DNA from: Pomacea canaliculata
Lineage: Eukaryota; Mollusca; Gastropoda; Architaenioglossa; Ampullariidae
Direction of reading: 5' to 3'
Assembly: GCF_003073045.1 (NCBI RefSeq)
Contig: NC_037592.1
Coordinates: forward strand, 1,957,371-2,021,370
Length of the DNA stretch: 64,000 nt
Positions 916-58,640 of this stretch are shown here, one piece after another. How positions within the stretch are numbered: position 1 is the stretch's first letter; each line of letters begins with the position of its first letter. The notes below the pieces were generated by a model. It searched no databases. It was not told the DNA's origin and saw nothing but the letters and a program-made list of their open reading frames with translations. The position numbers and the translations under genes were made by a program.

Positions 916-1265
916 ACCACTACCACCATTATCATTGTAATTGTCATTATTGTCATCCTTATCTTATTAATTATTTATGATAATTTTGTTTCTCTGTGAT
1001 GTTTTATGGCCACTAGTTTTTAAATAGTTGTATGCATTTGCTCAGAGGTTATGTGGATGCCTTTTTTAATATATGAATATTAACAGCTATCAGTTTGAAT
1101 CAGTTTATGCTTAGCACACTGAAACAAGAAGCTTATTGTTGTTTAATATTGCTACTGACAGAGATATGAAATATATTGAAATTAAAAAAAAAGCTAGCCT
1201 GGTTCTTGTACTTCAAAATCAGAAATAGTCATCAGCTGTTCAGACCCCTTTTGATGTATTCTCAG

Positions 1266-7200: not shown

Positions 7201-8398
7201 CAATGGTATGGAGAGGTTATGTGCTGCACCAAAACCTATTCCTCGCAGTCGCACATCTTTTGACATGGATGGAGAAAGCAGGAATAAAGACAGTGCTGAT
7301 CTGCGTGCTCCAGCTACAACGCCAGTTCCAACACCTCGCACTCGCAGCATTGACAATCTTCTGGATGAGCCCTTGATGAATGACATTCCAGCTCCTCTTC
7401 CACGTCCCAGACCTGTCTCAAGGAGAGACTGTCCTTTGTCTGGAGAGCTTGATGGTGGTATGTCACTTACATCTCCAGCAGGTGGGCTTGCAGTTCCACC
7501 CATCCCCACCAGACCTGCTGCTGTCAAAGCAGAAGGGGCAGGACAGAAAAGTGCTTCCCCTAATACACCTTCCAGCCAGCCAGGTGTTTCTCCTTTGGTG
7601 CCAAAGCACCCTATCCCTGTCTTCTCCCAGTCCCAAATTAATCCACTGGATACGCCCATCTCCCTAGTACATGATATTTCAGACCCTGACCCCTTTGACA
7701 CTCGCCACATTGCCGACCCCTTCTGCACAAGACCTGCAGCTCATCTGCAGTTTAGTGAATCTCCTATGAATGGGGAACCAGCTGGCAAGGTGCTAAGCTC
7801 AGGTGTTGCAGGTAGCCATGGTCCTAGTCTATTTGAAAACATCTCTTCCCATTCTAATATTTCTATGGACCCCTTTGAGATAAGATCTTCAATACCTCAG
7901 ACCTCTACAGACCCCTTTGATACAAGATCAGTATTATGTCATGTCCCTTCAGATCCCTTTGACACTAGCTGTATTACCTCCCACATACCCACTGATCTCT
8001 TTGATGCTAGCTCCACTGGACGCCAGATTTCAGCAGATCCGTTTGATACCAGTGCGTTTCACATAGCAATCATGTCTACACATTCTGATACTCAGGAGCC
8101 CACACGGTCCAGTAGTCTGTCTGATGAGCAAGATGGTGAGGGAAGTGTGACCTGCCCAGACACCAGCCCTCCAGCTTCACCTTCCTTCACCTGCCCAAAC
8201 CTTCCACCACCCCAGTTACCTGCTATATCTGCTGGTCCACCCCCTCCACCACCAAGGCGTGACCTGACATCTTCAACAGGAATTTCATTACCTCCTCCCG
8301 TCCCCACACGGCGTGCTCCAGGGAACGTTCCCCACCCTAATCCTGATGTACCACCTGTGCCAAGCCGCCCAGGGCCTCCTCCTGTTCCACGCCGCTAA
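1266..8398 (+). CDS. SYNJ1: Synaptojanin, C-terminal half (inositol 5-phosphatase end, RRM-like domain, proline-rich tail)
   Basis: Phosphoinositide phosphatase that strips PI(4,5)P2 from endocytic vesicles so that clathrin coats are shed. Ten exons fit by splice sites and phase: 1266-1474, 2501-2704, 2922-3000, 3421-3595, 4395-4484, 4810-5003, 5275-5392, 5539-5630, 6314-6482, 7200-8398; about 842 residues are visible. Exon 1 carries the 5-phosphatase end ([24 protein letters not shown]) and the catalytic SDHRPV motif is completed across the exon 1/2 junction. Exons 2-4 encode the synaptojanin RRM-like (DUF1866) domain with QGPPDGTV. Exons 6-10 are rich in PxxP SH3 ligands, and the last exon holds DPF motifs of the AP2-ear-binding type. 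The SAC domain and most of the 5-phosphatase lie off the left edge. The SYNJ1 rather than SYNJ2 label is nominal, because invertebrates usually have one gene. The start of exon 4 was chosen because it keeps alignment length with the human protein; exon 6 could instead start at 4819. Confidence 0.93.
3799..3865 (+). mobile_element. Short LINE 3'-tail fragment in a synaptojanin intron
   Basis: The stretch CACCTTCACATGGGGAAA followed by CTGCTTTACAGATTTTG and a T/A-rich tail matches, with substitutions, the fragment at 34573-34650 and the 3' end of the LINE at 868-915. It is read as an isolated, heavily 5'-truncated 3' terminus of the same CR1/L2-like family. Evidence is sequence similarity within this window only. 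Confidence 0.45.
4036..4235. mobile_element. Non-autonomous hAT-type element (MITE), 200 bp, with intact 8-bp target duplication
   Basis: The element starts CAGGGGTGGGCAA and ends TTGCCCAGGTCTG, whose reverse complement is CAGACCTGGGCAA, giving 13-bp imperfect terminal inverted repeats. It is flanked on both sides by the perfect 8-bp direct repeat TCTTAAAA (4028-4035 and 4236-4243), the duplication length of hAT elements. The interior is rich in GGGCCGG blocks, as in many hAT-derived short elements of animals. No transposase is present. It lies in the synaptojanin intron between 3595 and 4395. Confidence 0.88.
5786..6010. repeat. AT-rich degenerate minisatellite in a synaptojanin intron
   Basis: The phrase TTTTTGTCATTTGGTCATTG and its variants recur about four to five times, each followed by TAT-TGTCAATATATxTGTAT. 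The spacing is irregular, roughly 40-80 bp. It lies between the exons ending at 5630 and starting at 6314 and has no coding signal. Confidence 0.7.
7868..8077 (+). repeat. Five tandem 42-bp (14-codon) DPF-motif repeats inside synaptojanin
   Basis: Units begin at 7868, 7910, 7952, 7994 and 8036, exactly 42 bp apart, in frame. Their first residues are DPFEIR, DPFDTR, DPFDTS, DLFDAS and DPFDTS. Four of five keep the DPF tripeptide bound by the AP2 alpha-appendage; the fourth has DLF. Two further DPF motifs lie upstream, within about 7690-7730. Confidence 0.9.
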
Positions 8399-28781: not shown

Positions 28782-31700
28782 TCATGTCCATGGTAAAAAG
28801 TTGGAGAAGGCCAGTGTGCCTACTACAAAGTAGACCAAGAAGTAGCACAATATGAGTTTAAAATGTTTACTGGTCTTTGTCTGAATGGTCTTTAGAATCC
28901 ACCAGCATGAAATGTTTGCATGTCCTCTGTAATTCTGAACCCAAAAAGATTGATCCTGGGTGTGACGAAGAAGAAAGTCTGCCGTAAACCAGTAAATGAC
29001 AGGTGATGCAGAAAACAGCAGTCGAGTCAACACCTGATGAAAAAAAAACAAAATTGACTTAACATGGAATTTTCTGCATACATTATTGCTTTTAATATAA
29101 GCTAGTTTTATTGTGCACCTACTGAATTTTCTTATCTGTAAGGATACACGAGGCTAGGAGTTTCCATCTAGTCTGTCACCCCTCTGACTGCTCTAACTTC
29201 AAAGAAAACAATGCATGAAAATCCAATAATCCATAAATAAAGGAATGGGATGAGGTGACAACAAAAAGGCCTACCAAATACTGAACTCTCATCAAGATTG
29301 GTCATCATAAGACAAATCGCTGCTATCAAAGTTATGAATATCTCAAAGAAAGCACTGCTCTATTAAACAGGCACATGTACAAATTCCAGCTAAGGACAGA
29401 TGCTATCCTTAAAAACTAAAGTTCTCTTATATGAAGTGTGGCCAAGTAATGAACTGCTTCAAATCCACCAAGAAAAAACTGCTAGCTAAAGAATGGTCAA
29501 GGATGTCCCTGTTGAATATATTCTTAGAGAATAATATGCTCAAAGCTCTCTATGACCATCATACTGCCATCTCAATTGGTGGAAGACTAATCTGCAACCT
29601 ACACTTTGCAGACAACATAGATCTGTTAGCAGACACTAACAGGAACTGCAAGACCTCAACAACAGACAGTTCAAATGCATATGGAATGGACACAGCACTG
29701 AAGGAGCAAAGTTATTGTCAATGGCAGTGGCAAAGCAGAGATCTCTATGAATCAGGTACAGGTCAAAGAGGTAAACAGCTTCAATAACTTGGGAGCCGCC
29801 CTCTTCAAGGATGGTAGTTCCACACCAGATATCCAAATCAAGATCACAATGGCAATGGCTAGACTAGATAGGATCTAGCCTAGCCATAAGATAAGATTCA
29901 CTTCTAAGTACAAGCTGTACAAATCCCTGGTAGTGCCAATCCTACTCTATGGATGTGACACATGGACTTGGCTCGCCCAGATGGAAAGGACAATCCAGGC
30001 ATTTGAGAATAAGTACCTGAGGAGGCTGCTCTGGATCTCATACAAAGAACAATGACCCAGTGACTTGGTACAAAACAAGATGGCCACACTTGTAGGATAC
30101 CAGGAACCTCTACTTTCAACAGTCCAGTGACATAAGCTGGCTTTCTTTGGTCTTCACATGTGACCTGGCAAGACAGTCACCTGAAAGGCACCTTGGAGGG
30201 TAGCCGATGCCTTAGTGGCCAGAGAAAGAACTGGCTTCACATGCAAGTATTTTGAGACTTGGATAATTCAATTCAGACTTGTTTCATATACACATATATA
30301 CAATATCCAAAAATATATAAATCTTTCCTTAATGTGGCATTGTGTACAGAGGGTTTCACATGCAAGTAAATGGCTAATGATTTCACTTTATGTGGTTGGA
30401 ATTGTGTTGCCTATCCAACAAAATTTTTTGTCAAATATCCAACTTACCTGAATATGCATGAAAAGACAACCAAAGACTGTGAGGAATAAAAGATGCAGGA
30501 TGTAGACCATTACATCTGGTTGGGCCCATCCTCTAATTTGACTCTCTCCATCTGCTTTGTGTTCTGTCTTCTTTGTCATGATCTTTATCAGACCCAGGGT
30601 GTGGCATACACTTTTCTGTTTCTGGTAGTAGTCCCAGCAAGAACCAAAGCTTAGAATTATCACCGGGGCAGCGAGAATAAAGTTAGGGATTTGTTTCACT
30701 TGAAAATATGTCAACAATCCAACCCCCCAGTGCTGATTCTGCACATATGAATAGGACAGTGGGAGCCAGTAATAGCACCATGCAGATGGTGGATCTCCAA
30801 CCATGGTATACCTCTGTAATCGTCCATACACAACAATTTCACTAGACACTGAGTCTATAAGTTGCTTTTTTGGATTACAAAACAAGTGATAAATGTAATA
30901 CTGGTAAAAAGCAAATGGAGCTATTACTATAGCAAAAACACAAACTGCTCGAAAGATAAAGTGAAGCATAGGCCACAATAGCTCTTTGAAATTTCCTCTG
31001 CCTGTTTTAGCTTTCCATATAGCAGCACCTTGAAAAATGTATGTTTGAGTGAGATAATGTAAAATGAACCCAACAGAAACCAGGCCATTTGATCTTGTCA
31101 GAGCTGATGCACTCAGTACAAAGGCTCCTGTCCACACTAGTTTCTTGCTGATGTAAAGCATTCCCAAAAATGAAAGGAATGCAAAGAGTGTCTCTGTGTA
31201 TGGTGCTATCATAAATATACTGGCAGGATTGATACAAAAAAGATGAGCAGCACACAATGCAAGCTCTAAATCTTTCACCACTGTTTTTCCAAGATGGAAC
31301 AGTATTACTGCTGTAGCTGCGAATAGCAGCAGATTTACCCCCACAGCAAACAGTAACAACTGAGATGCCTGTGATACAACGGTTATTGGTAGTACTTTCA
31401 CTAAAGAAACTATCATAGGATATAAGGGGAAAAAGGCCACACAGTTTTCAAAAGTATAGCCATGCTCTGCAATATGTAAGATATACACGGCATCCCAGCG
31501 ACGAAATCCACCCAGGATGAAGAAGACAAGCTTGTCAAAACTGGTGAACTTGTCTGCACTTGCAATCGGAGGGTTGAATACACCAGCTTCATGATCTGGA
31601 ATCAAGACGTTGCCTACAAACTGAAGAGAAAGAAAATAATATTGGGAAGAATGAATCTAACGAGAAACAATTGTTATTTAAAAGTGCAAATATTAGTCAG

Positions 31701-35800: not shown

Positions 35801-38800
35801 CTTTTCTTAATACATTTCAAATCATTTTTAGAACATGTCGCTTGCATTTTATTGATTACTAGTGATATGTTAAATTCATATCTGGTATTTTAACTCTGCT
35901 ACTTAATTATTTTTGCAGACCAAAGGTGTGGAAGGTGAGGGGGGAAGTTTGTCCACAGATCTGCCACGAGTGGTAAAGAATGAGTGTGTTGACCGTTTCT
36001 GGCAGGCCATGGAGGCTTATTCACGTCCCATCACCGATGATGACATCCGTTTTCTTGAGGATCAGCTGCGCAAACATGATGATGAAGATGCTGCGTACTT
36101 CAAAATACCACCTTTGGGTAGACATTATCGTGATGTGTGGGCAGAAGAGGATCTTCTTGAGGAAATGACAGAAGGTATGCTTTTTCCTTGCACTTGCTTT
36201 AGAATTGTACTTGTTTAGAGTTTCACAAGATGGGTAAGATTTCACTGCTATTGTAGAAAAGTGTCTTTTGAATTCATGGTAGTCTACATCATGTAGCACA
36301 TCTTTCACAATCACAGGCTATGTTACACAGGCTCTTGAGTTGCCATGGAAAAACAAAAAAAAATTTTTAATCTGAAGTCTAGTAGTCAGGTGGTTTCTAT
36401 GCTGAATCAGAGTGAGATAATCATAATAAGCAAACTTGGATATTTTATCATTGCATCATCAGCAAAGTGCATCCATTTTGTCTTCCTCTTTCTGGTGGTG
36501 CTGCTGACAAAAGGAGACTGAACATTATTAACATGCATTTTTCATGCAGGTGCGAAAGTGAATGACAAAAAGCGGATCTCAAATCACTCAAGTCAGAATA
36601 GCAATGGACCAAATGAGGCCTCTGCTTTGCTTAAGAAAGCGGAAAGCAGGTTTGTGGTGTACATATTCCTTTATTTGTTGCATACTTCAGTTATCTGAAT
36701 GAATACTGGTACCTGGTTGTCCAATACTGTTCCACCAAGCATTTCTGTATTTTGCATAGTTTTGCAGAGTACGAGTGAGAGAGAGAAAATGAGTGAGAGA
36801 GCAAGAAAGGGTAGATGTTAGAGCTGTGTACTAAAGACTATGTGTTCACAAGGCTACTACAGTTAAATATTCATCAGAAAAATGATAGATAGCTGAAATA
36901 AAATACATCTGTGCTTCAGCATGGAAGAATCCCCGTTTGGTCCCCTCACCCAGCGTCTGGTTTCTGCCTTGCTCGAGGAGAATCTCATGACTCCAATGGA
37001 TGATGTGATGACAGATATGGGAGGTGAGTAGTTGGAACATTGCCTTAATGCATACTTGTTACTTCCTTACTTTCTCTTCCCCCAGCATCTGGAATGCCTT
37101 GCTCCTCTCTCAGCTTAGTGACTACCTTTGATGCCTGCTATCCTTAAGACCAACAGATAGTGGTCTCATCCTTTTTTTAACATGGTATTCTCCCTTCTCC
37201 CTCCCCCCTCCCACTGTTGTTATATTTTGAAGGCTGTGCCTATTTGTTTCTTGTGCTACTCTTTTAGTAAGTACATTAACTTACTGCCTGACAAAGAAAT
37301 GTTATATTTGTTGTTGTGGCTGGTATCTGAGGAATACAAAATCATTTCACTGCATGGGTATTGAGGATTTATAGCATCAGTTGACAGGTGACATTTCACT
37401 TTCCCTGGGTTATGGCTAATCTTCCTCCTCATCCCTTCTAATTCAGCATCACCATTTTCCCATCCCATTTTACATATTTAAAGCATAATACAAAGTCATT
37501 AGGAACCAATTGAATGCTAGCGAAGACTATATTTTTCAATGTAAGAAATTCACTTTTGTAGATAATGCTGATGAAGCACCTGCCATCTCACCACGGATGC
37601 TGGCCAAGCAGCTGAACATAGGTAACCCAGCCACACTGGAACGGCGCATACAGCAGGAACTTGAAGAACAAGGTTGTTTGGCACACCTGTGTTGTTTTGG
37701 TGGTTGCATTATGAATGATTTTGTGTTTGTATTAACATGTTTGTGTGTACATGCTAGACTGATTGTTTTACTTTTGAACGCAGGCATTCTAGAGACAGAG
37801 GAAGAGGTGGAGGATGACCCAAGTGATGAGATCCTGCAGGAGCTGAAGCATGCTCAGGCAGAGCTGCGGCCTCTCCTGCAGTGGAAAGTGAAGCACCTTA
37901 AGGATCTGCTGAAGAAAGCCAAAGAGCAGCAGGCTCGACAGCAGCTGTGGAAAAAGTTTGATGAATGTGATGCCAAGGTTAGCTTCCCTTTCATTAATAA
38001 CCAGTATTGAAGATATTAAAATCTGTAACTACTTGATAGAAGTAGCAGCAGTGTGTTCTTTATATTTTCTCATTTGAATTCTTAATAATAGCAAGTTTTT
38101 ATTCTGTCAGCCTATACTGCTTTTTACAGTGTTCCTGTGTTTTCTTGTCAAAACGTGGACTTTGACCTTAAAGAACTGGGTATGTGGGTGACAGTTATGA
38201 TGTGATTCTAGCTACCCACATTAAGACAATCCTGCAGTAGAACAATACAATGTTCACACATCCGTCACTAAAAACCTTGCCACTTAGCTTATGAGCCCCC
38301 ATCCCTGCTCTTCCCTGAACAAAACATTTAAAAGATTTAATAACACACCAATCATGCTAAGTACAACTATTTGGCTCATTTATAAGTACTTTCTGAGCTA
38401 TTCATACTTACAACTCTACAGTGCTGTTAACTCCCATTAAAAACACCATCTACTCTCACATACATCAGCTTAGCTCTGGCAGTTGTTGCTGCTGCTCTTA
38501 TACTGCAAGTTCTTCCCTCATCTCAGTCTCTGAATGTTTCGAGTCCATTCTTGTGATGCAGTGAGCACACTAATGACTCTTCTCAAAGCATTCTGTCTGC
38601 GCTGTCATTTCCCCGCTCAGTCTGCCACCACATCAGAGAGCAATGACTACTCTCCCAGTAACATAGATACTGAGCTCTGTCCCACTCCAGGGATAGCACA
38701 TGATTTCTTCCACAACTGTTTGTTCATAACTACACTGTTATACAGCACACAGTAGGATAAACAGCCACCGAATGAACACCACCTTGATGTGATGTAATCC

Positions 38801-44161: not shown

Positions 44162-47100
44162 CTAACGATAAACACGGGTGACAATCGCTGGTTCTCCAAA
44201 CACATTATCAGAGGTGCGTCGCTGTAAGAAGCGCGGAATTTTGCTCCAGTCAAAGCTTGTAAATAATGTGAGTGATTTTTTTAGACGGCGATTAAGGATG
44301 GCCTCTTCTGGATTTTCATGAATGGGGCTGTAACATACAGAAACAAACAAAAAAAATCAGAATCTAAGACACCTTTTTCAAAGTACAGTACAATTAATTT
44401 CTTCTCCATAGACAATCAGTTATTTATTAACCTCATATCCCATAACTTGGTGATGCTCATTATCAAAATGCACATTATACTAAAAATCACATCATTGTCA
44501 AAAATAATCTTCAGCCCTGGTCTGCCAGCTTTTTTTGTGCCCAATGTATTGCAGATAAATATTTTTGTTTGGAAAAACTGAAGCCATTTCAACTTGTTAC
44601 AAAATAATAGTACACCAAAATAAATGAAAACTCAGTTTTTAACAGACCTGTTCTTTAAATAGTTGTTTGCATATTCTTTCTCTCCTACAGGAAAAAAAAA
44701 GAGTAAATGTTAAACACAGCCATTAAGGATAACTTTAAAATGTTAAAATAAGACCAGTTAGTAGGCTTACACCGATACAAAAGACTCAAAAAAACAATTT
44801 CCAGCAATTGAAATGCTGACGTGTCACAGGAGCAAATCATCAGTAAACCTTGTTAAGGTGCTATGTAACAATGAACAATATCTTGACAAGCCAGGGCATG
44901 TTAACTCACATTTCTTTTATACTTTCGCTTATGTAGCCTTAATTTAAATCATTCTATTTTAAGACATATTTAAATAAAACAATAAGATAGAAAAGACCTC
45001 ATTATCAGTAAGAACATTTAAAAAGAACTTTTAAAGATTAACCCACCTAAAACACAAAAAGTTACTGGAAATCTAACAAAACATAGAGTTGTCATTAGTT
45101 TGTGACAACAAATAAGCTTCGGGGTTTTTTTGATGAAGGAAAGCACATATGGATTGACCTAAATTCTAGTTTATGCTGCTACTGAAGGCTGCAGCCAATG
45201 AAAGAATTTTTAGTATATGCTAATGAGGTGCTGCCCAATCAGTGAACCTACCTTTCTGACATTGTGGAAAGTGAGATCTCTTTCCAAAGCACACGTGAGA
45301 GATGTAATATTCAATGGGTTCTATCTCCTAGATGGGAATGAGTTTTTTCTTTTTCTTTTTTCTTTTATCACTCGATCAGGTCTTAAGGAATGTAGTATCT
45401 TTCACTAAATGACTTGAAAATGGTTTTGCATGAGAGTTGGCCTTTAAGATACACTATATCTTTCCCACTAGACACTGTACCTGTATATGTGACAGATTTT
45501 GGACGTCTACATGATGGTGGGTTATGGAGGGGACCTTTTACACAATGTCCAAATGCTACTCTCTCTTGAATCTTGACAAAGCTATTATCAAAAATTCTGC
45601 GTGCAGCATCCTTTTCTTTTTGGCTCACTTCTGTAAATTCCAAAACATAATACAGCTAGATTGTAGGTATGTCCTCCAATGGTGAATACAATTCTTTCAG
45701 CAAACATGCAACATATAGTGTATTTCAAACATGCAATTCTTTGCAATCTCAGATAATGAACAATTAAAATCTTAGACAGATGAAAGTTCCCACAAAACAG
45801 AAAAGTTAGTGTGGTTAGTATCTGAAAAATGAATGGAAACACCCACAGACATGCGCAAGCAGATGAAATTTGTATATGCATGTACGCATGCATGCAATCC
45901 CATAATACATACACACATGAACATGTTCACCTTGTCTGTCCAAGAGTGATAGTGAAGGTACCTTGTGGATGACAAAAAGGCGGTATTCTGGCTCTAATGC
46001 AATGGGGTTATCAAAAAGACCTGTAAAAAAAATTATAAAATAACATTGTACCATATAAAGCAACAATTGAGATGCAAATGTTAACATCAATAACCAACTT
46101 CTCATGCTTTTGCATATAACACGGAAGTCATCATAATCCAAGTATTACCCAGAGCTTGCACAGAATTTGTAGGGGAGGCAGGGGACTCTATTAACATGAA
46201 TGATATGGAGAATTAAGAACTATTGATATACCTACTGAGTGTCTGCAGACTCAGCATCTTCTGAAGCTCAGAGAGGACTTTCTCAAGTTTGGTCAGCTGA
46301 TTGTTGTGCAGCATCAGGACCCGCAAGCAGGTCAAGTGTCTGAGTGCACCAGGGATTTCTGTTAACTTGTTGTCATGCAGGTAGAGTTCGCAAAGTCGAA
46401 AGTTCGTGCTTAGGCATGTGATGTATCGTAGCTGGTTTTTTTAAGGATACATTGCCATTAATAGGATCATTAATTTTCTTCACTCTTACACATGCACATA
46501 CACATACAAAATTATATATATATGCACATAAACAGTTTTCTCTCGCTCACTGTCTCAGTGATACACACACATAGAACAATATACAGACTCTCTCTTTCTC
46601 TCTCTCACACACACAGAGACACATATTCTATAATAATTCTTGCTTTCCTTTCATTGTTTTAAAAATCTGAGATACAAGTTTTAAGTTAAGGGCTTATGCA
46701 AGGTATATATACATTTGCACAACACTGATGAGGATCTTGACAATAAACCTAAAAGAACACCTCTTAATGTCTTATGGACTGCACTATACTCATGCACATT
46801 GAATGCTCTCACCTGATTTCCATTCAACCACAGTATCATCAAATAAGGAAACCTCTTCAAGTCATGTACGTCAGTCAAGTTTCTGCAAGACAGAATCAAA
46901 GAATAGAAGTAAGTTATTGTAATGGTAAACCCATATTATCACTGATAAATTAAGCTTGTCATTGTATGAGAAATTTTGCATTTCAAGTATGACATTTCAA
47001 GTGCCATGTTCATTATGACAATGGATTTGGAAGGCAGTGGTCTGTATAACTGCTCATTTTGAGTGTACTCTCCATAATGCTGTTGATAATGATTAAATTA

Positions 47101-48182
47101 ATTACAACACTACACTAAACTGATAGTGATAATAATGATGATAATGTTAACAGTGACATTACTAGCACTAATTTCACCTCTTGTTCAGTCCTAAAATCAA
47201 AAAGAAAAGAAATAAAGATTCTGAATAAAAGTATATTGTGGCTCTAAGCAAGTAAATCAGCAAATTACCTATGCGCTAGGTATAATTCTGTTACGTCTTT
47301 GTCTTTTTTAATTCGGTTACTAACCATAATGCCATTCACAATCTGCACACAAAACAGGAATAAGTATTATCAGTCTACTAAAACAAAATTTAAAATAAGT
47401 AAAATAAAAGTAAGTGATAAAACCATATATATGCACCAGCCAGGTAATTGACATTTTCAAGAAAACAATTTGGTCACCCGACCTTTATTGCAATATCCTC
47501 ATTTTCTGACTCTCATTTTGTATAGGTTGCCTTGCCAAATTGTAATCAAATAAGCTAATACTGTTTATGATTTTAATCATACATATTTGTTGTCTGCTCA
47601 GATAAATGAGCATATATATATAATCCTATAGGATTCACAGTCCCTATAGCTACACTGTATTCAAGTGCTTGAGTGAACAATAGGCTACTTTATTCTATAT
47701 AAAGATTTCGGACATGGATGGGGGAAGAAGTGAGATATCAGATAAATAATCCAATAGCAAAGCAGAGAGCCTGAAATATCTGGAACAGTAATTTTTGCTG
47801 ACTACATTTTAAAATTCTTTTTTGGATGCTCTCTTTTCTCTTCAGGACTAGATGCCGCAAAGGTTGTTTTTTTTATGAGTATTTGATATCATATTCCCTC
47901 TGGAAATCAGATCTGATGAGTATCAGTCTGCAGTTTAGTTGAGCTGTTGCTAATTTCTGTCTGGGAATACTCGTCGAATTTTTATAATCATTTCTATATT
48001 TTAAAAATCAATTACTGGTGGCACTTAATTAAAAAAAACTTTCAAATATTTTCGACACGTTAATGAAATAAATAACGTTTACTTATAGTTAAATTTCAGA
48101 TAGATTAAATATCGGGCAGCCATCCCCTACTTACTAATTCGCTCAAAGTAGAATATCGCGTTATCTGAGGCGCAGCTGCCAT
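44162..48182 (-). CDS. LRRC72: Leucine-rich repeat-containing protein 72
   Basis: Small leucine-rich repeat protein of the SDS22/LRRC9-like class. Its function is not established; the neighbourhood gives no clue. Eight minus-strand exons fit phase: 48182-48135 (begins MAAAPQITRYSTLSEL), 47342-47269, 46882-46813, 46431-46236, 46020-45931, 45630-45481, 44684-44648, 44327-44162. These give 276 residues, against about 287 in human. Repeats include DVTELYLAHRNLTDV, LMILWLNGNQ, LCELYLHDNKLTEIPGAL and CLRVLMLHNNQLTKL, followed by an LRR cap (PSLSLLDRQEVSQKEKDAA). The C-terminal SLTLFTSFDWSKIP matches the human tail in position. The 37-nt exon 7 was found because it restores phase and family similarity. 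The gene is divergent to the zinc finger-helicase gene. Confidence 0.9.
46496..46620. repeat. Low-complexity CA/TA/CT-rich tract in LRRC72 intron 3
   Basis: Mixed short runs of CACA, TATATA and CTCTCTCT between the exons at 46882-46813 and 46431-46236; imperfect microsatellite. Confidence 0.7.
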
Positions 48183-49347
48183 TTTGCAGGTTGCTACAAT
48201 AACTGCAAGGAGTCATTTTAAACTTTCTGAGTATTTATCCCCCAAAACAATAGATTTACGTCATGTGATATTAATTTTAAAGTTTCATGATATAGGTTAA
48301 AGCATTTATTAATTGTTTGATTTAAATGTGGTGAAAGCAAATATATGTGGCTTCATCTGTTTCCTACTTCCTCTTGCTTGTTGCAGTTATTTTGTGCAAA
48401 AAGTTATTGACATTATGGTGAGGGCATTATGGTAAGAGAGATTAAAGCTCACCAAAAGCATTGATTTCAGTTGCCTTCATTAAAAAATAAAAAATAAAAA
48501 GTTTAACACATCATGCCACTGATAGTATGCACAACTTAGTTTTTCCACCGGTTATTCATTAATTAAAAACCTTGTAAGTGATAAAGTGAAAGTACATAAA
48601 TTCACGGAAATTAAACTATTGTCCAGCAGTCTGAACAGGGAAATCCCCAACAGCTGCTAGCAGTTTCCCATATTTTATTTTTGGTATTTAAGTGTGTGCT
48701 ATTTTACGTAATGCTGAATGGAGTGTTCTCTTAAGGTGGGGTAGATAATGACAATGCCAATAATACAAACTGTACATGGCTCTGTGTAAGTACATTTAGA
48801 TATTGTGGATGTGGAGTATTATGAATATTTATCAATAAAGTCGTAGCTATGTCGTTTGGGTAAATAAAGGCATTTTTTTAAAAATTATACTGGATTAAGA
48901 ATAGAGGCTAACATAGTTAAAACAATTTAAAATCTCCATTACTGACATCAGACTCATTTTTAACTGCCATAAACAAATTATTCTATAAATTCAGGAAATT
49001 TTGAAGTTTGCTAGCACCAGAGACACAAGTTTCCTATTGAGACTTCCCTGCTTGACCGTTCTGCAGTTCGTACCAATATTAAATAACTGCAAACTATCAT
49101 ATTCTACAGTATTAAAAGAAAAATATTTTACTGGGGCTGCTTTAATCATAATGAAAGTAATTTTAGGAAACATAATAATATATTTCTGTCTCAGCTGTTT
49201 CTGATACTGATACTATGGACTCATTAACAGGTTCAAGTCGTGAGAATGCTAATGCTTGGAAATGTTTTTAATCAAAGCATAATTTTGCAGCATTCTTATG
49301 TTTACAACATATGCATCTAGTATGTATAAATGCTTGTGAATTTTCAG
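48183..49347. promoter_or_regulatory. Divergent region between LRRC72 and the zinc finger-helicase gene; probably holds the latter's missing first exon
   Basis: The exon starting at 49348 opens inside a zinc finger, so at least one upstream coding exon is needed. Candidate donors are GTGAGG after CATTATG near 48417 and GTAAGT near 48786, but none gives a start codon in the required phase (two bases carried over). No homology helps, so the start is unresolved. Confidence 0.4.
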
Positions 49348-52300
49348 ATGCCAGACATGCAACAAGAAGTTTAGTGGAGCAGTGCCTCTTCATCAGCATC
49401 TTCAAAGTGCTGAGCATCAGCGGAAACTTCAGCAGCAGGAACAGGAGGGTGCGGCCCTTCAGTGCACAGCATGTAACATTCCCTGCAACTCGCAAAGGCA
49501 GTTGGCTGAGCACTTGCAGTCACCTCGTCATCAACAGGTTGTGGAAAGGTCTGCCCAAATTCAGCAGCTGCAGTGTCTAACAAAAGAATCATTGCAAAGG
49601 CAGAGATGGTGTGCTGAACGTCTTGTGGAGGGCTCCAGCATTGACCAAGGGCCACCAGGAACTTCTGATGCAGAAACTGTAGGGGATGCATCAACCATGT
49701 ACCCTTTAACACAAGCTTACAGATATAATTTTCCTGCACAGCAGCAGATGCAGTTTCCAAGTATGCAGACACCAGGCATGGCAAGTTTATTCTCACCACC
49801 TTTGCCTCCCCTGACCTCAGGAGTGGAGCAGAACAACGAGTATGTTTTCGCCAATGGTAAAGGCCATTGTTATGTATGTAATATAGAACTGACATCGGCG
49901 CAGCATAAAAAGCAACACATTGAGGGAAAGCCGCACAAGAAGAAAGCTATGCAAGGTGGTGGGAGTGTTAATGGCACTGGTGGTGTAATGATGTGCAGCA
50001 TCTGTAATGTGGCACTGTCAGGGCAATTAAATGTAGAACAGCATTTTTCTAGTGAAAAACATCGCCGGAAGGCAGGTGCTGCACCCACCCACATGATACC
50101 TCCAATTCCACTGCAACAGCCCTTGTTAGCTCAGAGTACTCAGGTGACTGGAGCAACTACACCTGTTTTTGTGCCTGTTGGAATAAACAGAGCACCTTCT
50201 GAACTAAATGCAAGCCAGGATTTTATTCCAAATATTAGTCCTAATATCTCTAGCTGGAAAGGTATGAGTGGGGCTGAGATATCAAATGGGGAAGCTTCAA
50301 GAAGTACGTTGTTAGTGCAGAGTAAGCCAGCATCTGAAACCATGTTGTTGAAAAATGTGGAGCAAACTACATCATCCAGTAAGCATGCTGAACAAGTGAG
50401 GCCTAAATTTTTTTGCCCTTTCTGCGATCTTGATTTTGACTTGGGTGATATGATGCTGGATCATCTTGCTAGTCCAAGCCACAAGCAGCAGGAGGAGTGC
50501 ATTAATAGTCTCAAATGTGATGTGTGCAATGAGAGCTTCACAGATACTTTAAGCTCCATTAAACACTATCAAAGTGATGTACATAAAAAAAACCGAGATT
50601 TTCGTGCTAATTCTGTGTATTCTTCTAGTTATCACAGACCAGAATTGGAATCTAGTTTCCCGGGAAGTGCACAGTATAAAAACGTAATGGCTTCAGACCT
50701 GAGCCATATCATGTCTCATACCTTGGACCAAGATCAGACGCTAAAAAAGCTCCTTGGTGTAGAGCCAGTGTCTCGAGAGGCTTTTAGATCCATTGTTCCA
50801 GACAGTGGTAAGGATGCTAGTGTCCAGAACACTGCCCTCAATCCCTTAAGTGGAGAAACAAAGAGTGCTGCACCGTTAATTCAGTTCAACATACCGCCTG
50901 TTGTGCCAACTGTAGAAGAGGAGGTGGGAGCTTCTGGTAATCTGGTATCTGGAACCCTTCCCGAACCATCTACCATACAAGAGGTTGTCTTTGATGGCCA
51001 CCGAGGAGTTTGCAATGCTTGTAGCGTGACTCTGACTTCCCCACAGCTTGCGAAGTCTCACCTGGCAGGTGCTAAACACCAGAAGGCCAGCCAGAGGTGG
51101 CGCATTGCACGGATGTCTACTCCTTCAACAAGAGGCTTTGTAGAGGGCAGCAGCGTGCAGCCTCTTACCACTAATGAGAGCACAGCATGCACAGAGTCTG
51201 GAACAAAGGCTTACAAATTTGATGGCGAGCGTGGTTACTGCTTTGCCTGCAAAATTGATTTGACATCAGTGGCACATGCTAACCAGCACTTAGTGGGGCG
51301 AAAGCACCAGATGGCAGTGGAGAGGTGGGTGCAGGAAGGTCAAGGCTGTGTGTACCCACTATACTGTAACACCTGCCACAAGCCATTCACAGGCCAGGAG
51401 AGTGCAGCCCAGCACTTTTCCTCAGAAAAGCACAAGAAAAAAATGCTGCTGACAGCAGAGGCAGACCCTAATCGGATTGATCCTTCAACTGGTGCTCTGA
51501 TAGTTATTCAAGATGGCCAGACTTGGTATGTGTGCAATGTCTGCAAGTGCCCACTTAACACCCGTGAACAAATGGAGATACACCTTCGCAGTCCGCGCCA
51601 CCTGAAGGAGCAGGAAAAGGTACATCAGCAGCCCACTGTCCTCAAGTCCGAGCAGGAACCCAATCCACTCCTCTTGGTAGATGGAAACATTAGCAGCAGT
51701 GAGCAGACTTTAGAGAAGACTGCTGCAGTATTGGAGAAGTCCCCTCCTGATCTAAGACATCTCATCACTTGCTCACCCATTCTTAAAGTGCAGCAACCAG
51801 CTAACTTAACCCAAGTACCATCTAGATTGACTGTAGGACCAGGTACAGGACTATCAAATCATGCTGCATTGACTGGGCCATCACTTGAGATGGATGGACC
51901 AGCTCACAACTCAAACAGCTCCAGTAAGGCTCATGGTGAGAGACAAAATGGTCAAGATTTTTCAGCATCTAGCATTGGTAGATTTAGGCAGGGGATGCAA
52001 GGCAGTTTTTCAGATTCACAGCTGGACTTAACAGGCACTGCAGGACAAGGTAACGTTGGGAGGGGACAGCTTCCAGCAGACCTTGTAAATGACCTCTATA
52101 ACCTCAATGTGGCAGTTAGCCGGTCTCAAGTCAGGCCAGGACTCAAAAACAATCGTAGTGGCAGGTCTGCTGCTCAGGTACTTAGAAGAGATGGTAATTA
52201 TGATTTTGATGACGATAATGAGGATATAATGAAAGAGATACCCACTTCTCCGTTAACCACCTGTTATGATGACTCTGCTGTTAGTGGTAATAGGGAACAA

Positions 52301-55300
52301 ATTGATTTGAGCGAAGGAGACAATGTGAGTGGTATTCATTCTGGGTCTTATCAGATGTCCATGACACAGTGAGTTGGCTCCGCATGATGTAGGCTCTATG
52401 GCTTATTCAGACTTGACTTTATCAGATGGGCAACAGCTGACATCAGTTGTGGGATCCTTGAGCACTGGTATCAATGAAAGCTTGGCAGGCACTCAGCTAC
52501 AGCGGCCGCCGCATGTGCCACAGACCATGTTTCCAGGCTTCAAGTTTTCATGTAACCTCTGTAGGAAGCCCATGAACACAAAGGAGGATTATGATAAGCA
52601 TGTGCTAGGCCTGAAGCACCAGCGGCAGACTGCCAGTGTGTGTGCACCAGACAAAAGTAATGAGCCTTTGATGAAGAAGGACTTGAATGCAGGACTACGA
52701 AAAGGCATATAGTAGCCTCAATAAATCCACACCTCGTGTATACCAGGTGGAACTCATGCGCAAAGCAATGACTAATGACTCCACAGTCATTTTTCTCCCC
52801 ACAGGTCAGTTTTGTCTCTGTCCTTCCTTGTTTTGGGGGAGGTATGTATTAGCCTTTTCTTTCTTCTTTCAGGTAGAATAGATTTTTCTGGAAGTATTAT
52901 GTTGTTTTTTTCTTGGCTTTGCACCAATGACAACCTATCCTGTCATTGTCACAGAGTCCTTATCAGTTTTTTTTGGTTTAAAAACAAAAATCATATTCTG
53001 TATTTCCCAGTGAAAGGTGAAACCGTCTGCTCTTACCTTCAGGGTCTCTGAAGATATAACCTACCTCTGATATGTTAAAGTATATGCTGTGGCCCCTTTA
53101 CTTCAAGATAGTCAAAATAAATAAAGTGAACTGAGATTGCCAGTGACCTCTTGTGCAGGAACTGGCAAGACATTGGTAGCCATGATGACAATCAGCTACA
53201 TGCTTACCTTGAACCCTACACGACCTGTCCTGTTCCTTGTGGACAAGGTGCTGCTGGTGTTACAGCAGGCTCGCTACATCATCAATGAGCTTGGCTCCAA
53301 GAATTTTAGAAGGTACAGCTCTTAGCGCTTCTGTTTTCAAGGAACAGTGGTATATACATGTATGCCAAGAGAGGAACAGTAGTTTGATATATTTGTATAT
53401 GCAGATGCACATTGCTTTTAGTTTGGAAACATTATTTCAAGGGAATTTTTTGCATGCATATGCTGACTACAATATTTATCTTACACGCTTGCTCATACAC
53501 ATAGACACTTATATTTGTCAAGATTTCTGTGTTGTTTTTGCGGCCTTTGACTTTTTTCAGCAGCTGTTAAGTTCAGAAACATTTTCTTTGTAAGTAAATT
53601 AGTGGTGAAGCTGAATTAGTTTAGTCAGGGCTTCTGCTTACGCAAAAAATTGCGTACAGTACGCATTAAAAGTTCGGAGGACCCCTCCAATTTTCGTCAA
53701 TGGGGTCCCCTTCAAATCTGGGCGAAGAACAGGGACCCCTTAAAAATCTGAAGAAGGGGTCCCTGTGACCCCAAAGAATTTAGCCTTAGCAGAAGCCCTG
53801 GTTTAGTCCTTGTTACTCCTTGAGGAGCATAGGGCCATAAGGTGAAGCAGAATACAGGCTGAAAAATTTGATTATGATTGCAGTAGTTTTGTTTTTGATA
53901 TTACATAGTTAAATGTTAATGTATTCTAATGGGGAATGAAGGTATCATTTTAATTCAATGTCAGTGCCACTTTTACTGATCATATCAAGCTATATAAATA
54001 CTCATTATTATAAGGCCTAATCTGCAAAATGACCATTTGGAGGAGCGCAAGTTAAAGGTGGCAGTTCTTTGTGGGGGCCTCAACACACGTGATGGCACAC
54101 CTATATATAAGCATGACGTCATTGTAACAACTGCAGGTCAGTTTGTGTTCTTTCCCTTTGCTGTGACAGAGTTTCTAGCATTTGTGGAACAGTCCATGTG
54201 AACTGTTTCAACCTCTTTCTGGATTGCTTAGGTGGATGATTTCTTCAGCTTTACTGTAAAAAGACAATTTACTCAGGAATGCATTTTTGTTACTTCTTTA
54301 TGGTCTTTGATACAATTAGGTGTTAAAGTGAACAAATACATGTGTAAATCTTGCATCATTGATTATTCTAAAAAAAAAATGTTGTTTTTGTGTGTGTGTA
54401 GCCTTCTGCCAGAACCTGTTAATGGAGGGAGTTTTGCGCTGGTCCAACTTGTCATTGGTGGTGTTTGATGAAGCACACCACTGTACCAAGAGCCACCCTT
54501 ATAATTGCCTCTTACGGGACTATCACCTCAAGCTTGTGCCAGAGAGTCGTCCTAAAGTTTTAGGTCTGACAGCCTCTCCAGCAGGACGTCGCACTAAAGA
54601 GGAAACCCTGCAAATGCTTCAGGAACTTCTCAACAACCTTGGTGATGCATGCATTGCAACAGTAGACAATCCATCAGCACGTGAACAGCTGGAGAAGTTC
54701 TCCTCCAGTGCTCGGCTAATTCCTATCTGTGTGCCAATGACGGAAGCTGAGATGCGCTTCCACATGGAGTTGCTAGCCTACTTCATCCGAGCATACATTG
54801 AATTGATGCGCTGCTCAAATCTTCACCAGATGAGCAATAAAGCTTTCAGAGACATCATCAACAGCAACCCCCTGGAAGAATCTCAGGTGCAGGAACTGGC
54901 AAAACGCCTGATGCATGAGCCAGATGAATTGAGTGAGATGTTTCAGCTTGTGCAAGTGCTCGCAACAAACCTAGTGTTGATTCTAGCAGGTAGTGCTTAT
55001 CTTTTTCTTATATCCTTCTGCATGATTTAAACTATTTAAGAGTCCAGGTATTATGATGGGATTTATTACACAAAAATCTGTATTGTGGGCTATATACATG
55101 TCAAAATTCTTCAAGACAAACTACTCAACAGCTATTTGTTCAGGTATAGATTTAGAAACAAAGACCACAAAATGTCACAAACTACTCTTTTTTACTAATT
55201 GGTTCACTCAGATGCAGATTTTCCATTTAGATACTTAAAAAATGCAGTGCTATATTTTGTTTGTTTTGTTTTTGTAAGGATCTGTGGATATGGTCTGTTG

Positions 55301-56148
55301 ACTGCTTGTTGGACCTGTATGTGGATGTCCTTGGTGCTTGATGCTGGGTCTTACTGTGTTACAGGTTTGAGACAATCCGCTTGCATGTAATGACAGTTGG
55401 AATGTCACTACTAAACTCAGAAGATGGCATTGATTTTGTCCTGGAGGACTTGGACAGAGAATTCAGTCCCCAGCTAAACCAAAACCTCTCAGAGCTTCGG
55501 CAACTTGGGCTACCCTGTGACACCATCGCTAAGTTTGTTCAGACCCTTTGTGATGCTTCTCGTGTGCGAGACACAGATGCACGGTCTGAAGGTGAAGCTG
55601 GAACCTCTCCATCAAGCATGTCTATTTTCCAAGAACTCCTGTGCACACTTAAAGACACCAAGTACATGGGCTGGGGCATGGCTGATGCCATGGCGCTGGT
55701 ACTGGTGCGTGAGCGCAAAGTAGCCCACAAGATTAAGGAACAGTTGAAGCGCACATCCTTTGTCCGAGAACGAAAGATGCGCGTGGCAGTAGTGGTAGGC
55801 CATGGAGCAGGGGGTGGCGAAGGAGAGGGCATGAACCTGCGTAAGCAAGACAGAGTGTTGCAAGGCATCCGCGCGCATCGCTACCAGATAGTGGTGGCAA
55901 CATCTGTGGCGGAGGAGGGGGTCGACATTCCGGAGTGCCAGCTGGTGGTCTGCCTCAACCCTCCTACCACTCTCAAAGCCATGGTGCAGATGCGTGGCCG
56001 TGCACGCAAGAAGGACAGCTATTTTGTGGTGCTATGCAGCAGCCAGCGGGAGAAGGAGAAGTTGGAGGGACTGCAGAAGCAGGAGTATAACATGAAGTGG
56101 GCAGCAGCGCAACTAGCCCAGCAGAACTGTCCAGCCAACCAGTTATGA
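49348..56148 (+). CDS. Multi-U1-zinc-finger / Dicer-RIG-I-like SF2 helicase fusion protein
   Basis: The first visible exon (49348 to about 52368) is one open frame of about 1,000 codons with ten C-x2-C-x12-H-x5-H fingers of the U1/JAZ (ZNF346, ZFR) class, for example CYVCNIELTSAQHKKQH. An eleventh lies at 52551-52619 in another frame. Helicase exons then fit phase: ~52693-52804, 53159-53312, 54015-54136, 54402-54951, 55365-56148. Motif I PTGTGKT is split by an intron; then VIVTTA (Ic), VFDEAHH (II), LTASPAG (III), ATSVAEEGVDIPE (V) and MVQMRGRARKKDS (VI). An insert between the helicase lobes (about 54750-55600) is consistent with the HEL2i of Dicer/RLR proteins. The protein ends 50 residues after motif VI, without RNase III, PAZ, CARD or C-terminal regulatory domain. 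A dsRNA-related role is inferred from both domain types. The start, and the joint at 52325-52693, are unresolved. Confidence 0.85.
53619..53807. mobile_element. Short DNA transposon (MITE, hAT-like), 175 bp, in a helicase intron
   Basis: The element spans 53626-53800. It begins CAGGGCTTCTGCT and ends AGCAGAAGCCCTG, perfect 13-bp terminal inverted repeats. It is flanked by GTTTAGT on both sides (53619-53625 and 53801-53807), a 7-bp perfect duplication one short of the hAT norm. Inside is a second perfect 12-bp inverted repeat, CAGGGACCCCTT at 53730-53741 and AAGGGGTCCCTG at 53754-53765. No transposase is present. Confidence 0.9.
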
Positions 56149-58640
56149 TGATGGCTATGTTAGAGGGTGCAGCAACTCTCACTTGCTGTTGGTTGTTCAC
56201 AGTGACCTTTACTGTTGCTGTTGAGCTCTCGGCTACAGTAAACTTTGCTGTGTAGAATGTTCACAAATTTTCATGTTTATGTTCAGCTGGCTGTTGAAAA
56301 TTCCAGAGTAGCATTCTTACCCGCTGTCAGGTTTGTGCTGAGCTAATGATAGAAACCTCAGCAGTTTTTTCAGTGATTTGAGTAAACTGTTGGCTTTCCC
56401 AACCAGCAAAAGCATGAAAATGGTTGGACATCTACAATGCTTCCTGCAGTTGTTGTGCAACAGCTGCGCAAAAGTTGCAAAACAGGACATAGTTATATAA
56501 CTGTGAGGTAGAAATGATTTGTAAGTTGAACCCCCAGTGTCTTAGCTTATTTGGAAGCAGCTCCATTCTTAATAGGGGTACACATTTAAAGAAACAAGGT
56601 GGTTTTTTAATAACTTTTTTTTGTTAATATGTAAAGTGGTGAGTGGAGGAAAAACATTTTGTTTTTTGGAAGTGACAATTTTTCAGTTTAAAGGTCGAGT
56701 GGAGTGTCATTTCTTTCAGGTGACTGGGCTTAGCTGCATACTATTTCTCCAAATCAGAATAAATAAGACCTATCTGTTCTTGAGATACAAGCCTACAACC
56801 ATCAGCATGCAGGTCAAAGCTGTGGCCTCACAAATGTCTGGGGATTTGTTTTATTAAAATATGGTCCCAGCTGTAGTATTGGTTGTATCCTTGACGGTGT
56901 AAACTGTATATATATTATTGATATCTGTATTTTTTTACCTCTTTTTCTTGTGCATGGGGATGTTTTGTAGGTATTTTATCTTGAGAATGAAGGGGATTTA
57001 TTCGATCAGATATTAGTCTTAGATTCTGAGAAATGGTATTTTTTTGTCAATCCTTTCATTTGATACACAAGACAGTTTGATGTTTGTTTATTTTCACTTA
57101 ATGGTCATCAGGTTTAAATCACATTGACAAAATTGATGAAAATGCCAGAGCTTTTTTAATATTTATGTTTGTAATAAGATTATATCACTTCTGGTTGAGG
57201 AGTTATGATATTGGCTGTGGAACTGGACTCTTATCTACTCCAGTTATTTCCTGAAATGGTTTGATTATGACAATCTGTTGATTTTAAGAGAAAACATGAA
57301 TGATCGAAGATTGTATGTCTTTATATGTTATTGCAGTAACCAGGTTGCTAGTTCATGAAACATAATAGGTTTTTCGGACTATGATCATAATTTTTCTGCT
57401 TTATCGGGCATTGTTTATTGAGCATTTGGTTTCATGCCTTCAACATTCATGGCTTCATGTGTGGTTGTATGCCTGCATACGTTGGTCTGTGTGTGCATGC
57501 ATATATGTGGATTATAAATATATTATAAAATGCAGTCTTAAATGCTGCAGTTGCCGCAGTTGACGTGTTATACTTAGATTGTGTTGTCAATGTGATTATG
57601 TAAGACTTGGTGCTGTGAGAGTGAAAGAATCGAGGAGACTGTCATCAGACCCCAACGAAGTGCTGTTTTCTTGATTTTGTTCTTAAAATTTAGGTTTAGT
57701 TTCTAGAGGGCTTAGTGCAGGATCTGAACAGCAAGTCTTGAAGAACCATGGCTTAAAGTCAATAAGTAGTCCCTTTTCTGGCACCTGTCGTTGGGGCTTA
57801 AGCTGAAAAGGTCATTAACTGTTACACCTTTTTTGGACAATACCGTCGCTGTGGAATGACCGGGTGAACAGCGTGCAATGGACATTTGAACTCTATTCTA
57901 AAAATCCTAACAAAGCAATCGACAGCTGCTGTCTCAGGACAAGATGCATGATACGGTAAATTAGAATCCAGAGCTTGACCAAGGGCAAGGGTTGGATGCA
58001 CCATGGCGTTAGATGGAAATTAACGTCTATCATCTAAAATAATGAGATAAATTATTAGCAGTTTAACTGATTTCTGTGCTTCAGAATCCAGCTAGCATCA
58101 CCGTTCACCTTGCCCCAGAACCTAGAAGTCGGCGACCAGCTAATGCCAGAGAGCGTGATGATGTCAAATGAACATACTATATAGCCCACTACCCTAAGGA
58201 ACTCAAAGTGCTGTGTTCGTTGCACGCTGTACTCGAGTACTTTTATATATGTTAATATATTGTCCGAAAACACTGGTGACCATGAGCGCGTTCGATCGTG
58301 GTAGGGTAGCTAAGGTCGTAAAGAAGCTGAAAAAAAAAAAATGGTGTAGCCCGTGCACATCGGTTACTGCTAAAAACAAAGTGTGTGTCTGTGTGTGAAT
58401 GCGTGCTTACGCGTGTTTCTGCACCCCCCGCCAGTTTTCTGCCCGAGAGAAAAGGAGAAATGGTGAGCACTGCTGTACATCCGATGACAGATGCTGTTCT
58501 TTTTCGTTAAGTATTTCTGATGAGAATTTTAATTTGGACTAATCACTTTGTTTTGGTTTTTCCACAAATTCAGTAAAATTGCATAAGCGTTTTTTTCTTC
58601 TTTTGAAAAAAAAAAAAAAAGACTGTGGATGAGTGGGGTG
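56149..58640 (+). other. 3' UTR of the zinc finger-helicase gene and following intergenic sequence
   Basis: No coding exon supported. AATAAA at 56758-56763, about 610 nt after the stop, is a possible poly(A) signal. The rest is AT-rich with short chance open frames. Confidence 0.45.

Follow-up and report, generated by a model that had tools for sequence, protein, structure and literature searches.

A candidate Pomacea canaliculata gene linking U1/JAZ-type zinc fingers to a helicase core of the Dicer/RIG-I kind

Results

A stretch of 64,000 bases of the Pomacea canaliculata genome (contig C3, positions 1957371-2021370; hereafter the window, in whose numbering coordinates are given) carries on its plus strand an array of zinc fingers of the U1/JAZ type followed by a helicase core of the Dicer/RIG-I kind. 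In the most economical reading, a single gene codes for ten or eleven of these fingers together with the helicase, in a protein with a length of at least about 1,580 residues, and the product would be an accessory translocase on double-stranded RNA (dsRNA) comparable to LGP2 and the DRH proteins, with the fingers recognizing the RNA. Taken jointly, these two statements have in our judgment about an even chance of being correct.

A splice search found an open frame of 1,580 residues that runs from ATG to stop across GT-AG introns and couples ten fingers to the helicase (Table 1). The original prediction, which placed fingers and helicase in one gene, is thereby upheld for ten fingers, whereas the eleventh lies outside this intact model. 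Of the limits proposed for the gene, 49348 directly follows a CAG acceptor, and 56148 is the last base of the TGA stop codon (56146-56148). Upstream, six phase-compatible ATG-to-donor candidates are available for the first exon; three of them have no stop at the junction, and two of these three share the donor TGT/GTAAGT (here and below, the slash marks the exon border). The protein would end about 36 residues past motif VI. Pfam recognizes zf-met, jaz, ResIII, DEAD, and Helicase_C in the model, the last three above their cut-offs. No CARD, RNase III, or RIG-I C-RD is among its 11 Pfam matches with E ≤ 0.1, and in the assembly searched (440,159,624 bases in 24 contigs) the 10 matches of RIG-I_C-RD (PF11648), at seven places, and the three matches of RNase III (PF00636), on contigs C8 and C11, all lie off contig C3, in agreement with the lack of these domains noted originally.

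Table 1. Coordinates of the finger-helicase gene and of other features in the window
Feature	Coordinates	Strand	Basis
Candidate first coding exon, MTMPIIQTVHGS plus split Val codon, donor TGT/GTAAGT	48748..48785	+	used in the intact model
Large exon with fingers 1-10, separated by long linkers	49348..52324	+	open reading frame (ORF) 49340-52372, 1010 codons; Pfam zf-met/jaz; splice model
Ten C-x2-C-x12-H-x5-H fingers	49349..51601	+	pattern scan
368-base segment, removed by splicing in the intact model	52325..52692	+	exon-like composition
Finger 11 (CNLCRKPMNTKEDYDKHVLGLKH), in ORF 52365-52712, frame different from that of fingers 1-10	52551..52619	+	pattern; Pfam below cut-off
Helicase exon: TPRVYQVEL and the beginning of the P-loop (PTG/)	52693..52804	+	motifs, PDB matches
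Helicase exon: rest of the P-loop (TGKT) and motif Ia	53159..53312	+	motifs, PDB matches
Helicase exon: motif Ic region (DVIVTTA)	54015..54136	+	motifs
Helicase exon: motif II DEAHH, HPYN, motif III LTASPAG, start of HEL2i-like insertion	54402..54989	+	motifs, Pfam, PDB
Last exon: rest of HEL2i-like helical region, HEL2 motifs IV-VI (QMRGRAR), one pincer-like helix	55365..56148	+	motifs, model
AATAAA poly(A) signal, about 610 bases past the stop	56758..56763	+	sequence
Exo_endo_phos2 exon	1170-1514	+	Pfam
Pro-rich ORF with DPF repeats, no Pfam match	7175-8398	+	ORF
PIG-V mannosyltransferase	30391-31656	-	Pfam
Ada3	37489-38007	+	Pfam

A six-frame scan of the whole window for C-x2-C-x12-H-x(4-6)-H gave exactly 11 matches, all with five residues between the histidines, all on the plus strand and all in this gene (starts at 49349, 49463, 49868, 49994, 50414, 50516, 51011, 51239, 51365, 51533, and 52551), and in 200 base shuffles of the window the pattern occurred 0.065 times on average and at most twice. 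Pfam assigns fingers 1-10 to zf-met (1.2e-35, in eight stretches) and zf-C2H2_jaz (1.1e-22), above cut-off, and the description of eleven strictly spaced fingers of the U1/JAZ class therefore holds for their number and, in fingers 1-10, for their class. Of the domain searches that had been proposed for this gene, those for zf-met and jaz, like those for DEAD, ResIII, and Helicase_C, gave matches above cut-off. Finger 11 scores slightly below the curated cut-offs (2.2e-4 with jaz, 0.0021 with zf-met). A two-finger module has probably been duplicated within the array, because finger pairs 3/8 and 4/9 are the first and third best among all 55 pairs, and modules 3-4 and 8-9 are both spaced 126 bases. 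Fingers of the JAZ type hold dsRNA irrespective of its sequence, and by analogy the array may bind dsRNA.

The helicase motifs quoted in the original prediction (PTGTGKT, DEAH, TAS, and QMRGRAR) are all present. The full set comprises PTGTGKT, DEAHH with HPYN, LTASPAG, ATSVAEEGVDI, and QMRGRARKKDSYFVVL, and motifs I, II, III, V, and VI are intact. The best PDB match is AncD1D2 (137.5 bits, E 4.2e-39; 44.5% over 211 aligned block positions), followed by Dicer (112.9 bits; Dicers 1.2e-31), LGP2 and RIG-I (104.4 and 104.1 bits, about 5e-29), and Hef and MDA5 (93.7 bits each, 8.1e-26), with plant Dicers alongside the latter two; DRH (72.2 bits) and Dicer-2 (69.3 bits) still precede FANCM (61.5 bits, 4.6e-16). 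Two proteins of the snail itself serve as yardsticks, one of its RIG-I-like receptors (RLRs; L040, a patchy construct), which reaches 253.8 bits against RIG-I, and its FANCM, which reaches 306.8 bits against FANCM. Given that the best match of the window gene has only 137.5 bits, its helicase is, from these scores, unlikely to be an orthologue of RIG-I or FANCM. Motif VI reads GRAR in the window helicase and in five of the six Dicer/RLR rows that reach this motif, and GRTGR in three FANCM/Hef rows; the Cys in ECQLVV is the Dicer/RLR state, found also in one archaeal Hef (L114). The diagnostic columns divide 2:1 between Dicer/RLR and FANCM/Hef, with one agreeing with neither, and 5:9 between Dicer and RLR, with seven agreeing with neither. 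Each of the two large helicase exons matches the Hef model of NCBIfam (9.4e-10 and 1e-16), with scores well short of the cut-off of the model; apart from Hef, NCBIfam gave other generic helicases, PADLOC gave generic helicase matches only, and Rfam gave no match at gathering thresholds.

Two trees were used to place the helicase, a smaller one of 16 rows and 219 columns and a larger one with 14 archaeal Hef rows added, which were picked for diversity and a recognized motif III (of 228 matches, 80 loci were kept and 78 parsed). In the smaller tree, the window helicase joins the Dicer stem weakly (61.8/76), and the approximately unbiased (AU) test rejects its placement next to RIG-I (0.0005), as sister to the snail Dicer (0.023), and on the RLR stem (0.042), the latter two being kept by the Shimodaira-Hasegawa (SH) test. 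In the larger tree, in which the RLRs are non-monophyletic, the split that separates the window helicase and the Dicers from the RLR, FANCM, and Hef rows has a support of 98.8/96. There, AU rejects a position within FANCM and one with Hef (0.001 each), both of which SH keeps (0.14), whereas AU keeps a position with the crown Dicers (0.326) and does not quite reject one next to RIG-I (0.0745). In both trees, the clade formed by the Dicers and AncD1D2 leaves the window helicase out (97-98). By AU, these trees place it outside FANCM and Hef proper; they lean towards the Dicer side, with several points of attachment kept.

A model of HEL2 was built from the last exon and 30 archaeal Hef rows (of 66 prepared), in an alignment of 31 rows. 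Its mean predicted local distance difference test score (pLDDT) is 72.3, with ten-residue blocks at 70-95 from residue 81 on, indicating that HEL2 is modelled with confidence, and it includes a pincer-like helix of 28 residues. The region before HEL2 is predicted to be helical, with blocks at 39-50, and a comparable insertion exists in Hef and FANCM. Folding of the last exon as a single sequence gave a pLDDT of 39.7, low everywhere. In a Foldseek search with the HEL2 model, the first 14 rows are taken up by LGP2, MDA5, and DRH-1, among them structures with bound dsRNA; given that many of the root-mean-square deviations are large, only the HEL2 part is meaningful.

Searching the genome with the last exon (E ≤ 1) returned ten places, namely the window gene, one FANCM, one Dicer (C8:16.99 Mb, with RNase III at most 10 kb away), and seven loci with a neighbouring RIG-I C-RD. 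The sequence taken at each of the other nine places (L034-L044, 5.1-9.9 kb long, with partly incomplete genes) contains no finger of this spacing, and no second copy of the finger array or of the HEL1 exon was found in the genome, HEL1 giving three weak matches at RLR loci. The scans of viral contigs for relatives gave no pattern match in one case and 9 in the other, none of them confirmed, and none of the 28 pattern matches from the scan of genome contigs was confirmed; animal protein databases may hold unnamed orthologues. HEL1 was seen in six of the seven snail RLRs, with intact P-loops and DECH boxes. In one of them (L037, 211-411 and 849-941), an intron seems to split motif VI, because the coding match stops after QARG and resumes at GRAR, and similar match ends occur in other RLR loci. 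The finger-helicase gene has no intron in motif VI and has its P-loop split instead.

In the assembled sequence, fingers 1-10 occupy one frame, finger 11 a second, and the start of the helicase a third, and the successive frames overlap by 8 and 26 bases. The donor AAT/GTGAGT at 52325, which agrees with the consensus in 8 of 9 positions and ends the large finger exon in the intact model, and the acceptor CAG/GAC at 52692 make the ten-finger frame continuous with that of the helicase; the finger frame itself is open to the TGA at 52370. At the last junction, the acceptor 55396 is in frame, and the acceptor 55364 has the better pyrimidine tract and is one base out of phase. The 368-base segment removed at the first of these junctions has a GC fraction of 0.486 and a T fraction of 0.25, compared with a GC of 0.34-0.37 in the four introns between helicase exons, and in 20,000 shuffles of this segment an open frame of 110 codons appeared 198 times and the finger pattern twice. 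Given this exon-like composition, the rarity of frame and pattern in the shuffles, and the weakness of the acceptor, finger 11 is probably coding, either through alternative splicing or once assembly indels are allowed for. A need for three one-base breaks was dropped, since the in-frame splice model has none, though finger 11 is left unexplained by that model, and programmed frameshifting was rejected because it would require two sites, neither of which resembles a known site.

Passages of the assembly paper describe PacBio reads corrected with Pilon (PMC6129957). The snail FANCM gene (L044, C8:18407000-18416900) loses its frame by one base within motif VI (QRMG-RTGRKRQGRIV), with both sides matching FANCM of the PDB. 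Among six apparently intronless HSP70 places on contig C1 (13.858-13.870, 14.727, and 39.327-39.333 Mb; the other members among 58 matches were left out), three carry no break, one is fragmented into six pieces, and in the remaining two the coding sequence is divided between two frames, so that two of the five near-full-length copies are frame-split. The breaks in FANCM and HSP70 point to residual indels in the assembled sequence.

Upstream of the finger-helicase gene, a leucine-rich-repeat gene lies on the minus strand (46213-48193), with a likely start, read by eye, at MAAAPQITRYSTLSEL followed by GTAAGT. The two genes stand head to head, which suggests a shared promoter region. The other neighbours (Exo_endo_phos2, the Pro-rich ORF, PIG-V, and Ada3) do not suggest a defence cluster.

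Discussion

Several observations weigh against the reading of one gene for a dsRNA translocase. Motif II is DEAH, the state of FANCM and Hef, and not DECH. The original prediction regarded a tree with the helicase outside the Dicer/RLR group as contrary to its proposed kinship with Dicers and RLRs; such a tree was not obtained, and AncD1D2, Dicers, and RLRs lead the PDB matches, but AU keeps the FANCM/Hef stem in the smaller and the larger tree (0.36 and 0.518) and, in the latter, also the RLR stem (0.316). In the Foldseek search, FANCM is 15th (3.2e-10) and AncD1D2 16th with an equal E-value, and the HEL2 model is itself built on Hef rows, with low confidence in the insertion part. A phmmer search of the PDB with the fingers as query found nothing at E 0.1. 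The snail RLRs supply other dsRNA helicases, and the gene therefore need not fill a gap. At the junction, the acceptor 52692 has a poor pyrimidine tract (5/14) and exon-like composition on its intronic side, finger 11 falls outside the intact model, and keeping it in one exon would take two frame changes.

Part of this evidence is shared by the foremost alternative, which we consider unlikely, namely that the gene codes for a translocase of nuclear RNA metabolism or DNA repair. ZFR-like proteins bind structured RNA or nuclear partners through their fingers, and here the fingers would do likewise, while the helicase, as a relative from the FANCM/Hef stem, would have branched nucleic acid as its substrate; the protein would then have no part in antiviral defence or small-RNA biology. 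This would agree with the DEAH motif, with the stem position kept by AU, and with FANCM standing level with AncD1D2 in the fold search, as well as with the PDB match to Hef, the NCBIfam Hef matches on both large helicase exons, and the finding of no second copy, unlike the RLRs. Nonetheless, AU rejects a nested position, whether in FANCM or with Hef, motif VI and the Cys of ECQLVV have the Dicer/RLR states (the Cys being present also in Hef L114), and the match to FANCM is only a fraction of that of the snail's own FANCM.

The remaining alternatives concern the junction between fingers and helicase. It is rather improbable that the locus makes alternative products, with retention of the 368-base segment giving a finger-only protein that ends at 52370 and splicing giving the fusion; the consensus-like donor, the frame open to the TGA, and the exon-like composition would fit, but the weak pyrimidine tract of the acceptor would not, and finger 11, past the stop, would be left unexplained. 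Slightly less probable still are two adjacent coding units, one for a ten-finger protein with its stop at TGA 52370 and one for a helicase with its own start at ATG 52687, for which the overlapping frames, an AATAAA at 52720, and the position of that ATG immediately after a stop can be cited. Against this, finger 11 sits between the two in coding-like sequence, the in-frame 368-base GT-AG join exists, and the composition is exon-like throughout; there is also little room for a promoter, because only 109 bases separate the last His of finger 11 from the TPR motif of the helicase. A gene that is decaying or already broken, in the individual or the species, is the least probable, given that the two frame changes in 0.4 kb under a no-intron reading and the phase of the acceptor 55364 are outweighed by 1,007 open codons in the finger exon, intact helicase motifs, a fully open gene model, and similar breaks in FANCM and HSP70 that point to assembly indels.

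If one gene codes for an accessory dsRNA translocase, the finger array would hold dsRNA without regard to sequence and so concentrate the helicase on the duplex, and the helicase core, judging from its motifs, could then hydrolyse ATP and move along the duplex or clamp it. In the manner of LGP2 or nematode DRH-1, the protein would pass the duplex to partners of the Dicer, RLR, or ADAR type, or keep it from them. We infer that the fingers would substitute for a C-RD or a dsRNA-binding domain in RNA recognition, and an antiviral role, if any, would be inferred in the same way. In C. elegans, Dicer is reported to act with DRH-1, a nuclease-free relative (PMC11095941).

The Dicer of the snail (L043, 5238-5393 and about 5790-6000; C8:16.99 Mb) has the P-loop GSGSSKV and DDCH in motif II. 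Because the P-loop is degenerate and motif II is DDCH, the ATPase of its helicase is probably dead, the P-loop being read from one assembly with known indels. The DDCH agrees with PMC11114477, according to which most gastropods have DDCH and the helicase of molluscan Dicer is likely inactive. With this state of the snail Dicer, it becomes testable whether a Dicer-type helicase works in trans. The gene could be a line split off from the ancestral Dicer-type helicase that predates the crown Dicers and is competent as an ATPase; it would recognize dsRNA with its fingers and supply in trans the ATP-dependent dsRNA handling lost by the snail Dicer. This extension is a long shot, well behind the nuclear alternative and about on a par with alternative products.

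With the Dicer helicase and AncD1D2, the window helicase shares its top sequence match, the motifs TPRxYQVEL, HPY, and GRAR, and the same side of the tree; it differs in lacking RNase III, in carrying fingers, in having DEAH in place of DECH, and in its position outside their clade. With LGP2, which has no CARDs, and DRH-1, it shares a helicase core of the duplex-RNA ATPase type, a predicted helical insertion, and a GRAR-type motif VI, but it has no C-terminal C-RD, almost no pincer, and N-terminal fingers, and nesting with RIG-I is rejected in one tree and not quite in the other. FANCM and Hef resemble it in the core layout, with an insertion that is predicted in the window helicase, and in the DEAH of motif II, and differ in the GRTGR of motif VI and in the rejected nesting. 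The class and spacing of the fingers are those of ZNF346/ZFR/ZNF385-type (JAZ, zf-met) proteins, which are not known to carry a helicase. The gene also resembles the non-canonical RLRs of lophotrochozoans in the placement of a new N-terminal domain on an RLR-type helicase (PMC8998645). The consulted text of that survey, which builds on the C-RD, lists CARD, death, DED, IG, SAM, and CASc as N-terminal domains, and its main text contains neither "zinc" nor "Pomacea" (0 occurrences). Titles and abstract openings, in a literature collection with few subscription papers, pointed to no protein with the finger-helicase layout.

The duplex-RNA helicases (Dicer, RLRs, and DRHs) form a small and well-studied set. 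If the proposed reading is true, the gene would add to them a lineage that recognizes RNA with another kind of module and so represent another way to build a dsRNA machine, and the ATP-dependent handling of long dsRNA in molluscs would be directly testable through this gene, alongside the seven RLRs.

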